Of a stretch of 64,000 bases of DNA, positions 2,993-6,309 are shown in pieces. The stretch is from positions 1 to 64,000 of the forward strand of contig CANIOW010000005.1 in assembly GCA_947469285.1 (NCBI GenBank). Direction: 5' to 3'. The position numbers were made by a program, and so were the translations under genes. The first letter of the stretch is position 1. Every line of letters begins with the position of its first letter. The DNA comes from Gammaproteobacteria bacterium. GTDB lineage: Bacteria > Pseudomonadota > Gammaproteobacteria > Steroidobacterales > Steroidobacteraceae. Under the pieces are notes generated by a model. It was not told where the DNA came from. It made no database searches and worked only from the letters and a program-made list of their open reading frames with translations.

Positions 2993-3322
2993 ATGCTGCC
3001 AAACACTAGTCCGAGCTTGACCATCACTTGCGTTGAAGACGAACAAACTGTCGTGTTCCACGCCGTCGGTCAAATCAACTTCACCACCAGCGAAGCACTG
3101 CAACTGCCGCTCCTCGCTGCTGCCGAGAGCTCCCTAAAAGCGCTGGCGCTGGACCTTGGCGAAGTGGACTTCATCAGCAGCGCTGGACTTCGGGTCCTGA
3201 TGATGGCTGCGACCCGCTTACGTAAACGGAACGAGCGCCTCACCCTGCGGCGAGTCCAGCCGATGGTGCTGGCGGTGCTAAAAATGGCCAACTTCACGCG
3301 CTTTCTGGACATTGCTCCTTGA
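2993..3322 (+). CDS. STAS-domain anti-sigma factor antagonist
   Basis: A single STAS domain of 109 residues, the usual size for RsbV/SpoIIAA-like antagonists. DFISSAGLRVL at 59-69 contains the conserved serine pair (62/63), one of which is normally phosphorylated by an anti-sigma kinase and dephosphorylated by a PP2C phosphatase. The stop codon overlaps the start of the next gene (ATGA at 3319-3322), indicating translational coupling to the MBL-fold protein. The PP2C phosphatase gene at 5104 is the natural enzyme for dephosphorylating it. No RsbW-like kinase or sigma factor is encoded nearby. The partner could be a sigma factor, an anti-sigma factor or an enzyme such as a diguanylate cyclase elsewhere. 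Confidence 0.9.
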   Translation: MLPNTSPSLTITCVEDEQTVVFHAVGQINFTTSEALQLPLLAAAESSLKALALDLGEVDFISSAGLRVLMMAATRLRKRNERLTLRRVQPMVLAVLKMANFTRFLDIAP

Positions 3323-5049
3323 TGGAGGCAGATATTGTCTCCGGCGTCTGGCAGCCGGTTCCCGGCACCAGCACCGTCCAGCTGTATCCCTTTCTGGTGC
3401 GCACCAGCATCACCTCCTCGAATTGTTATCTCCTCAGTGCACCCGCCGTCATTGTGGTCATCGACCCGGGCGCCAATCCGCAGCAAACGGCGGCCATCAG
3501 CCACGTGGTATCCGCGGCACTGGCAGAGCTCAAACGTCCAGTCGTGGTGCTCCTGACCCATTGCCATCAAGACCACTCACAGGAGGCCGCCAACCTGACA
3601 CTGCCGGAAGGCACCCAGAGCGTGCTCTGCCTGCATACGGTCGGCGTTGCCGCGCTGGAAAGCGCGGACCGAGAACTCACCTTCTGCTGCTATTACCCTT
3701 GGGAAACGCAGATCTGCCAGGTCAGTTCACCCCTGCGGCTCTTTTCCGGCGCCCCGCTACCCACCATCGCAGAAGCCTCTGGCCTGTCGCTGGGGGCAGA
3801 CCCGGTCCCACTGCCCTCGGGAGAACTCTTTGAGCGGGAGTGGCTGGCACTGGGGAACGGCGAGCGACTCGACATTTATTACACCCCCGGGCATTCAGAT
3901 TGCAGTGTCACCCTGACCGTAGGCGATCTGGTGTTCCTGGGCGATCTGCCATTCGCCGTCAACCCGGGCATGTGCGGCATTTATGGCTGGGACCACGCAA
4001 AGCTGTTGCGCTCTATCCGCGACGTCACCTGGTTACTCAACTCACGGAGCCAATCCGTCTGCTTGCTGGGTCATGGGTGGGCGATCACCAGTGCCGCGAT
4101 GCTGGCCAACCTGGACGTCATGGCGGCGACCTCCAGTCAGTTAACCGATGTCAGCACCATGAGTCTGGAGCGCATCGCCGTCCTGAAATTACATCTGGAC
4201 GAGATTCTCGAGGAGGCCAGCTATCTTTGTACGGTCATCTCGGGGCAGTTATACGCCTTGTCATTCATGCTCAGCAGCCTTGAAGAAAACGCTGCCAGCG
4301 AGAGCACACTCGCCGCTCTCGATGCGGAACAAATTGAGCAGAACCTGGCGGATTTGCGGCGCTTTATCCTCGATTTCACCGCCACGCGCCTGCCAGACCT
4401 CACCCTCATCCTCAAAGGCGTACAGGTCATTGGCCGACTATTGTTGCTGATCGACGAGCGCGCTCTGACCGGCCTGATCGAACCCTCCTTGTTGGCGCGC
4501 GCGCGCGGCCAGTTCGAAGATTTTTTATCCATCGCGCGCGGCTTGCATTTCCTGAGCGCTGATGCGATCAGTGACCTCAATGTGGTGGTCAACGCCTACT
4601 ATCGACGGCTGATGCATGACCGCCTCGCGGAACCCAGCGACCAGCAGATGGAAGACGGCGAGGACGCCACCACCTTCACTCAGGCCTTGGTGCGCCAGCT
4701 GGCTGGCAGCGCTATTCTGCATGAAATAGAACTCGAGCTAGATCTGACCTCTGCATCGACCGCAGCGAATCTGGGCGGGGTGCGTGTCGGCCATATTCTC
4801 GAGAGTCTGGTAGAAGCCATGGTGGCCGCAGGGCAGACCCGTCTACAGCTCCGTACCCAGCGCGACCATAACGAGGTGGTCTTGCGCTTGTCTAGCGTGC
4901 ACTCTATTAACCACGCGTACTTGGAAACACCACGCCTCGACTTCTACCGGCGCACCATACACTGGCTCGGTGGCCGCCTGCTTGACCACCCAGGCCATTG
5001 GTTCGAGTTTCGGCTGCCCGCTTGCCAAGATTTGAGAGTCCACGGCTAG
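3319..5049 (+). CDS. Metallo-beta-lactamase fold protein fused to a degenerate histidine-kinase-like region
   Basis: 576 residues in three parts. Residues 1-260 are an MBL-fold hydrolase with a full metal set: HCHQDH at 80-85, H192 (YTPGHSD), D209 (FLGDLPF) and H252 (LLGHGW). Residues about 270-470 are helical and leucine-rich. Residues about 485-570 read like a histidine-kinase ATPase domain: VGHILESLVEAMVAAG resembles an N-box helix and RRTIHWLGGRL...FEFRLPA resembles the domain end. However, the N-box asparagine, the DxG box and the GxGL box are all missing, so ATP binding is doubtful. Translation is coupled to the STAS gene upstream, and the PP2C gene follows after 54 bases. Its substrate is unknown; a sensor or scaffold in the partner switch is my inference. 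Confidence 0.8.
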   Translation: MMEADIVSGVWQPVPGTSTVQLYPFLVRTSITSSNCYLLSAPAVIVVIDPGANPQQTAAISHVVSAALAELKRPVVVLLTHCHQDHSQEAANLTLPEGTQSVLCLHTVGVAALESADRELTFCCYYPWETQICQVSSPLRLFSGAPLPTIAEASGLSLGADPVPLPSGELFEREWLALGNGERLDIYYTPGHSDCSVTLTVGDLVFLGDLPFAVNPGMCGIYGWDHAKLLRSIRDVTWLLNSRSQSVCLLGHGWAITSAAMLANLDVMAATSSQLTDVSTMSLERIAVLKLHLDEILEEASYLCTVISGQLYALSFMLSSLEENAASESTLAALDAEQIEQNLADLRRFILDFTATRLPDLTLILKGVQVIGRLLLLIDERALTGLIEPSLLARARGQFEDFLSIARGLHFLSADAISDLNVVVNAYYRRLMHDRLAEPSDQQMEDGEDATTFTQALVRQLAGSAILHEIELELDLTSASTAANLGGVRVGHILESLVEAMVAAGQTRLQLRTQRDHNEVVLRLSSVHSINHAYLETPRLDFYRRTIHWLGGRLLDHPGHWFEFRLPACQDLRVHG

Positions 5050-5103: not shown

Positions 5104-6309
5104 ATGAACCTACCCACCCAGACTCCAGCTGAAGCGACGGCCAGGATTGCCGAGCTTGAGCGCCGCTGTGAAATGCTCGAAACAGTGATTAACGAGCTAC
5201 CTGTCACTGTATGGGTCAAGGACGCCGCAGGCCGTTATTTGGTGGTCAATAATTTTCATTGCCAGATCGTCGACCGCCCACGCGAAGATTTCATTGGGAA
5301 AACCTCCTTCGACTTGTTTCCACTGACAGACGCACTGCGGTTCGCGGAACGGGACCGAAAAATGATGGAATCGGGTCTCGCCATGGAGACCGAAGACGAG
5401 CACAACAATGTTGACGCACATGGGCGTGAATTCTGGATGGCCGCCCGCCGCTTCCCGCTCACACTGCCCAGTGGTGAACGCATCATTTTAAATGTTGGCC
5501 GAGAGATCACCGAGCGCCACAACGCGGAAGTCAGGCAAAAAGAACTCCATGAGCAGCTCGAACAGGCCCATGCAAAAATCAATACTGAACTGAGCGTAGC
5601 ACTGGCCATGCAAGTCGCTATCTTGCCTGCGGGTTTCCCCACCATGCTTGGCTGCTTGGGCGCCGCGCGCATGATGGCGGCGACGACGATGGGTGGAGAC
5701 TTCTACGATTTCATTCCCTTGCCCGATGGGAAAATCGGCCTGGTCATTGCCGATGTCTCTGGCAAAGGTGTTCCAGCCGCCTTCTTCATGGCAGTCACCC
5801 GCACCACCCTGCGCCATCTGGCAGCCTCGGCCTCAGGCCCTGGACATTGCTTGCAGCTCACCAACGACGTGTTGTGCGCACAAAATCCATTGGAATTATT
5901 CGTCACGGTGTTCTATGCGGTGTTCTGTCCAGTCACCGGGCAGCTCACCTACGCCAATGCCGGCCACAACCCGCCGTACCTGCGCAGTGCTGAAGGACGG
6001 GTCAAGCCACTCGACGCGGTCAGTGACCTGGTGCTCGGCATGGGTCCGGAGACCTTCCAGCAACACACCGAACAGCTCGGCCCCGGCGACCTGCTCATTT
6101 TGTACACCGACGGAGTGACAGAGTCCTTCGATACTGCTGCCCAGCCGTATGGCGAGGCACGTTTACTCGAACTGCTGACGCAGCAGGAAAAAACCCACCC
6201 TGAGCAGTTCGTCGAGGCGATTTTTTCCAGCGTCAATGGGTTCGCAGTGGGCGCACCTCAGGCGGATGACATCACGGTCGCAGTCATGGCGTGGCAGCTC
6301 ACCCCCTAG
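5104..6309 (+). CDS. PAS-sensing PP2C-type (SpoIIE/RsbU) serine phosphatase
   Basis: 401 residues. A short coiled start is followed by a PAS domain at about 25-140 (ELPVTVWVKDAAGRYLVVNN ... GREITERHNAE), a linker helix, and a SpoIIE-type PP2C domain from about 175. Metal-binding and core motifs are present: GGDFYDF with D199, ADVSGKG with D217, ANAGHNPP, LYTDGVTE and ADDIT with D388/D389. Members of this family dephosphorylate STAS proteins such as RsbV. The natural substrates here are the STAS protein at 2993 and perhaps the STAS domain at 213. There is no GAF domain or transmembrane segment, so the PAS domain presumably senses a cytoplasmic ligand. It is the last gene of the operon and converges on the TonB receptor gene. 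Confidence 0.92.
   Translation: MNLPTQTPAEATARIAELERRCEMLETVINELPVTVWVKDAAGRYLVVNNFHCQIVDRPREDFIGKTSFDLFPLTDALRFAERDRKMMESGLAMETEDEHNNVDAHGREFWMAARRFPLTLPSGERIILNVGREITERHNAEVRQKELHEQLEQAHAKINTELSVALAMQVAILPAGFPTMLGCLGAARMMAATTMGGDFYDFIPLPDGKIGLVIADVSGKGVPAAFFMAVTRTTLRHLAASASGPGHCLQLTNDVLCAQNPLELFVTVFYAVFCPVTGQLTYANAGHNPPYLRSAEGRVKPLDAVSDLVLGMGPETFQQHTEQLGPGDLLILYTDGVTESFDTAAQPYGEARLLELLTQQEKTHPEQFVEAIFSSVNGFAVGAPQADDITVAVMAWQLTP

Follow-up and report, generated by a model that had tools for sequence, protein, structure and literature searches.

An MBL-fold protein fused to a putative pseudo-histidine kinase and encoded between STAS and PP2C genes

The window, a 64,000-nucleotide stretch of gammaproteobacterial DNA, carries between a STAS gene and a PP2C-type phosphatase gene a single frame that joins an MBL domain to a half resembling a histidine kinase (Table 1). 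This locus raises the question of what a hydrolase-like domain and a kinase-like domain do in one chain, and whether the flanking genes act on it. An earlier note on this DNA had described the frame as an MBL enzyme with an intact set of metal ligands, tied to a degenerate kinase domain.

Table 1 Features of the locus in the window
Feature	Coordinates	Strand	Remarks
STAS protein, Ser in SSAGL motif	2993..3322	+	PF01740 6.4e-16
Fusion gene, MBL and putative pseudo-histidine kinase	3322..5049	+	575 aa from ATG 3322 (probable start, picked by comparison with L010)
MBL domain	3415..4023	+	residues 33-235 from TTG 3319; PF00753 E 5.6e-12
Predicted helical segment at the place of the kinase DHp	4165..4617	+	residues about 283-433; helices in two models; no conserved His
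Predicted CA-like (GHKL-fold) domain	4669..5025	+	residues about 451-569; without N-box Asn, G boxes and full lid
PAS-SpoIIE (PP2C-type) phosphatase	5104..6309	+	PF07228 6.2e-53, PF08448 3.2e-14

The gene and its MBL half

The reading frame is open throughout positions 3319-5049 of the forward strand and encodes 576 amino acids if counted from the TTG at 3319. We consider the ATG at 3322 the probable start of the gene because its overlap with the STAS stop codon, with which it shares one base (TGATG), is the same in the 90%-identical relative L010.

The window protein scored 46.5 bits against PF00753, above the Pfam cut-off of 22.7, and fell below every NCBIfam cut-off. It contains the HxHxDH motif and the later H, D, and H of the MBL-fold metallo-hydrolase superfamily, namely H81, H83, D85, H86, H192, D209, and H252 (numbered from TTG 3319), with the first six inside the MBL domain and H252 just 3' of the PF00753 match. 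Across 22 aligned members of the family, the first four ligands were kept in 21 of 21 rows with a residue at these positions, and the last three in 22 of 22. The ligand set was thus found intact, as the earlier note had claimed, both in the window and in every covering row; its numbers for H192, D209, and H252 were correct, but those it gave as H80, H82, D84, and H85 were one too low. The best PDB profile matches of this half were 7ev5 (9.3e-15) and the GloB structure 7l0b (4.6e-13). GloB-like and LACTB2-like MBL hydrolases have the same HxHxDH...H...D...H ligand set and the same fold, but, unlike the fusion protein, none of the best matches was reported with a kinase-like half. We infer that the MBL half is a metal-dependent hydrolase. 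An enzyme is the simplest reading, since the ligands persist whether or not a member has STAS and PP2C genes, although an MBL domain with intact ligands may still work through binding alone.

The C-terminal half

Pfam recognized no kinase family in the whole window protein at E-values up to 1, nor in the C-terminal regions of 20 members at E-values up to 10. When a C-terminal profile was searched against PDB sequences, the best kinases were ZraS (E 0.072) and ThkA (0.35), found alongside two unrelated chains (0.1 and 1.4). Comparing a profile of 20 C-terminal regions with one of 23 HATPase_c proteins from the window's own genome, some of which may be non-kinase GHKL proteins, gave an E-value of 1.5e-5 and a probability of 79.5%, and the alignment spanned the first CA strands through the last strand. 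The controls of this comparison, six column shuffles and one reversal, failed, with probabilities of 0.06-0.19%.

Structure prediction pointed in the same direction. Two AlphaFold models were built, both on five sequences and both of low overall confidence, with a mean pLDDT of 61.8 for residues 270-576 and 51.9 for the full-length protein. For the former, the top Foldseek match was DivL (4q20, 6.3e-6), with PDK2 at 7.4e-6 and HK853 at 1.0e-5. The same model aligned in VIA-align to DesK with a Z score of 13.0 (2.6 A over 117 residues), and the 50 matches listed were histidine-kinase-type chains, save for a designed helical bundle and a plant phytochrome. Residues 451-569 of the full-length model aligned to DesK with a Z score of 13.2 (2.6 A over 115 residues). 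Within the CA-like part, the ten-residue means of pLDDT were 55-75 in the full model (residue 491 onward) and 67-77 in the C-terminal model (onward of about residue 490), but only 38-51 over the first ~40 residues. The preceding segment was predicted as long helices, with a pLDDT of 66-85 in much of the C-terminal model but 34-45 in the full model, such that its arrangement is not settled. Mitochondrial PDK/BCKDK kinases also ranked high in Foldseek; given the uncertainty of the helical part, we do not claim a resemblance to them. Because the profile comparison, Foldseek, and the Z scores of two models agree, we regard the C-terminal half as kinase-like, and a CA/GHKL fold of histidine kinases as the supported prediction for its last domain. 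The fold prediction of residues 270-576 that the earlier note had proposed as a check therefore returned, in two low-confidence models and with profile homology, this fold and not an unrelated one.

The aligned sequences support the description of this half as a pseudo-histidine kinase whose ATP-site motifs were lost. Position 499 was initially a candidate for the N-box site and was dropped, as the HATPase_c profile alignment places the N-box at 500; there, none of the 21 rows with a residue has Asn, the position being occupied by A, G, Q, W, R, or F. The places of the two glycine motifs were read off alignments. A DxGxG string was missing from the C-terminal region of 21 of the 22 members, the exception being a DQGFG near the expected place in L011, whose nearest relative, L012, does not have it. 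A GxG followed by L, M, I, or V occurred somewhere in the C-terminal region of six of the 22 and only once at the place of the G2 box (GGGL, again in L011). The window protein has none of the three motifs in its C-terminal region. The stretch equivalent to the lid, from strand to last helix, measures 14-16 residues in family members, compared with 24-53 residues separating the two G motifs in HATPase_c proteins of the window's own genome (16 of 23, those with both motifs found), the two measures being similar but not identical. As for a phospho-acceptor His, no column across residues 270-576 had His in more than 8 of 22 members; positions 308-309 hold S/A/G and G/A. For the window protein, the absence of the N-box Asn, the DxG and GxGL boxes, and an obvious phospho-His motif, as stated in the earlier note, was thereby confirmed.

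Other features of this half were retained: position 499 is acidic in 20 of 22 members, and G551 is kept in 20 of 21. Conservation is lower in the CA-like core than in the MBL half. For the single pair compared, the window and L010, dN/dS was 0.205 (MBL half) and 0.245 (C-terminal half), so the kinase-like half is maintained in this pair. In one member (L056), the last part of the CA-like domain was not recognizable: the match breaks off at a point corresponding to about residue 503-514 in its relatives, with some 300 bases of contig still to follow, and no continuation was found in other frames.

The family and its neighborhoods

Scanning genome contigs revealed five relatives, of 90% (L010), 50% (L011), 48% (L012), and 41% (L013) identity, together with the partial L014. 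The contig of L010 (CAMAXE010000003.1) is labeled Klebsiella pneumoniae, yet it belongs to a metagenome assembly and encodes a 90% identical protein, and the label looks wrong. Close to the window, the family was rare: one of 396 genomes matched in its order and one of 398 in its phylum, in both cases its own genome only, with up to three candidates per genome scored. In a scan of 40 genomes, the eight other matching genomes gave just MBL matches of 57-75 residues. Searches around the Binatia genome G797 yielded more distant members, in 4 of 148, 1 of 21, 7 of 46, and 9 of 155 genomes (query genomes included). The C-terminal profile matched eight of 395 genomes, each time in a frame of 568-601 amino acids, long enough for both halves; one of these was a new member (L098), whose MBL half was confirmed on reading. 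Full-length members carry both halves, and one lone MBL fragment was seen, an N-terminal match of 79 positions (L035) that lies inside its contig without the rest of the protein. The MBL domain therefore does not occur mostly alone in relatives, the observation that the earlier note had said would speak against its reading. No relative was found on plasmids, and 57 pattern matches on viral contigs contained none.

A tree of 19 rows comprised three main clades and one long branch (L025), with uncertain deep joins. The five full-length STAS-linked members were set apart from all other rows by a branch with 100/100 support; we refer to their group as clade A. The partial L014 and the fragments L021 and L035 were left out of all protein alignments, L056 out of the tree and the profile alignment of C-terminal regions, and L057, whose N-terminus is cut by the contig end, out of the tree; L098 entered only the ligand and motif counts over 22 aligned members.

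In clade A, a STAS gene lies directly upstream of the fusion gene at six of six loci (window, L010-L014). Counted in bases, the spacing is -4 from the TTG (-1 from the ATG) in the window and -1, 6, 6, and 42 in L010-L013, in this order. A PP2C gene adjoins the pair at five of the six loci (window, L010, L011, L013, and L014); at the remaining one, L012, the contig is 3.4 kb long, no PP2C gene was seen, and the next downstream frame has no Pfam match. The phospho-acceptor Ser of the SSAGL motif is likewise kept in five of six (window, L010-L013). The STAS gene of L014 (L014:4737-5081) keeps both ends and has no SSAGL stretch, either by true loss or through an assembly fault. The PP2C input domain differs among loci, with PAS in the window, Cache and a weak HAMP in L011, and GAF in L013 and L014. 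The position between STAS and PP2C genes that the earlier note gave is thus confirmed for the window, where all three genes share a strand, but this setting is limited to one clade and does not extend to the whole family.

We recognized no RsbW-type serine kinase beside these genes in the window or in L010-L013; in L014, a PP2C-HATPase gene lies upstream. Elsewhere in the window's own genome, on contig G000:C33 (L089:5743-8949), a STAS gene is followed by an RsbW-type HATPase_c_2 gene. Reading on along that contig, we noted a gene for a substrate-binding protein and then another gene with a STAS domain; the contig appears to hold another partner-switching cassette. The window also has, at 180-1370 on the forward strand, a gene in which STAS (PF01740 9.2e-13) is fused to an APH-type phosphotransferase (PF01636 2.2e-11; 114.8 bits against TIGR02172, under the cut-off of 228.2), possibly a second switch close to the start of the contig. 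We considered this gene as the missing kinase and set it aside, as at other clade-A loci the query matched STAS genes only. Directly downstream of the Binatia fusion gene, L013 encodes a TIR-domain protein (L013:4124-4918, forward strand; PF13676 3.1e-14).

Outside clade A, the STAS query had no match at the fetched loci, and the STAS switch therefore cannot be the general mode of the family. In one clade, a major-facilitator (MFS) transporter gene is directly upstream of the fusion in five of five scanned frames (L026, L045-L048), with an alpha/beta hydrolase as a neighbor in L049 and no match to the L045 transporter in L099. In another, aldehyde ferredoxin oxidoreductase adjoins the fusion in three of three (L027, L050, and L051), joined in L050 by a 3-hydroxyacyl-CoA dehydrogenase, and in L053 an AMP-binding enzyme adjoins the fusion. 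The oxidoreductase and dehydrogenase neighbors may point to acid or CoA metabolism. In L057, genes for SpoIIE and HATPase_c_2 proteins lie near the fusion on the opposite strand; just after the SpoIIE phosphatase gene, L057:812-2341 (forward strand) joins a HATPase_c_2 domain to a weakly acetyltransferase-like stretch (4.1e-16 and 0.003 for the two parts).

Possible roles and related systems

The explanation that we favor, with a probability of roughly 40%, is that the MBL domain is a hydrolase regulated by its pseudo-kinase half and, in the window's clade, through a STAS/PP2C partner switch. The helical segment and the degenerate CA domain would together form a protein-binding regulatory module, with the adjacent STAS protein as its likely regulator. 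A serine kinase encoded elsewhere would phosphorylate the STAS protein in trans, a role for which the RsbW-type gene of G000:C33 is a candidate, and the PP2C phosphatase would sense through its own variable input domain and dephosphorylate it. One phospho-form of the STAS protein would then bind the pseudo-kinase half and turn the hydrolase on or off. This direction of the signal, entering at the PP2C protein with the fusion as target, is suggested by the STAS-fusion pair, which is constant while the PP2C input domain varies. The retention of the MBL ligands alongside the loss of the kinase motifs also favors a regulated hydrolase, whereas the STAS of L014 without its phospho-acceptor stretch, the missing PP2C gene in L012, and the absence of a recognized kinase gene inside the clade-A operon count against it. 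It is more doubtful that the scheme holds in its most specific form, in which the metallo-hydrolase is the output enzyme of the switch, the fused pseudo-kinase reads the phospho-state of the STAS protein, and Ser phosphorylation thereby controls the breakdown of a small molecule.

The main rival, which we find weakened and on balance unlikely, reverses the flow of the signal: the MBL domain would be the sensor, with a metal, a small molecule, or oxygen as its ligand, and its state would be relayed through the pseudo-kinase to STAS and PP2C proteins acting on an unseen target. Ordinary histidine kinases do take their input at an N-terminal domain, and a di-iron MBL-type protein is reported to be a chemotaxis sensor (Muok et al. 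2019, as cited in PMC10653840). Two members also gave weak, non-significant matches to the ODP family PF19583 (E 0.17 and 0.25). However, flavodiiron and ODP-type MBLs have an HxExDH di-iron site, with Glu where the fusion family has His83, and this site was absent from the family, all 21 rows that cover position 83 having His there. Moreover, the PP2C proteins already carry sensory domains, and members without STAS and PP2C genes have the same ligands.

We judge it rather improbable that the hydrolase is constitutive, with the kinase-like half serving only dimerization or substrate access and the link to STAS and PP2C being merely operonic. Such a protein would agree with the two other clades, which lack STAS and PP2C genes and lie beside MFS transporters or aldehyde ferredoxin oxidoreductase, and with the lower conservation of the CA-like core, but not readily with STAS and fusion genes that overlap or nearly overlap in bacteria as distant as Gammaproteobacteria and Binatia. 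That the C-terminal half itself binds ATP in an unusual manner and serves as the STAS kinase of the module, as the lack of a recognized kinase gene in the operon and the conserved acid at 499 and G551 might suggest, is highly improbable given that the N-box Asn, the G boxes, and the full lid are all missing and that DivL, which is less degraded, is according to the available part of its description already a weak binder of an ATP analogue (PMC4211667).

Regulation of the hydrolase by its pseudo-kinase half would have parallels in known systems. In the accessible text on DivL, a histidine-kinase core without kinase activity acts as a phospho-specific reader of a response regulator (PMC4211667). 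The likeness to the fusion lies in a dead kinase core used as reader, and 4q20 was also the top Foldseek match of the C-terminal model; as far as that text goes, DivL differs in having PAS domains, keeping its lid, reading a response regulator, and carrying no MBL domain (PMC4211667). The RsbU/RsbV/RsbW and SpoIIE/SpoIIAA/SpoIIAB systems, as the portions of the sources at hand describe them, share with the locus a STAS protein with a phospho-acceptor Ser and a PP2C/SpoIIE phosphatase (PMC8256260, PMC12143880). Here, by comparison with those portions, no RsbW-type kinase or sigma factor was recognized beside the genes, and the GHKL-fold partner forms one chain with an MBL domain and appears to be without an ATP site. 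Finally, SiaABCD of Pseudomonas aeruginosa encodes together a phosphatase, a phospho-switched small protein, and a gated enzyme, and its SiaC-SiaD pair illustrates, in the part of the paper covered, that a phospho-switched partner can gate an enzyme (PMC7278518). These three elements resemble the window's module in logic at most, and do not imply membership: the gated enzyme is a diguanylate cyclase, the kinase SiaB is within the operon, and the covered part mentions no MBL or pseudo-kinase (PMC7278518).

Each component, whether MBL domain, pseudo-histidine kinase, or STAS/PP2C switch, is of a known kind. Among the literature matches listed, which covered few subscription papers, neither a fusion of an MBL domain with a pseudo-kinase nor an MBL gene in a STAS/PP2C module was described, in line with the earlier note, whose author did not know the combination as a described system. 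Since the C-terminal half matches no Pfam family, annotations of these proteins probably mention nothing beyond the MBL fold. Known pseudo-histidine kinases such as DivL read a partner; the one in this family appears to be joined to a different class of enzyme, and distantly related bacteria have retained it. Should the hydrolase prove to be under STAS control, a metallo-hydrolase would be added to the targets of partner switching, and the fusion proteins would provide a soluble test case, in one chain, for the regulation of an enzyme by a dead kinase fold.
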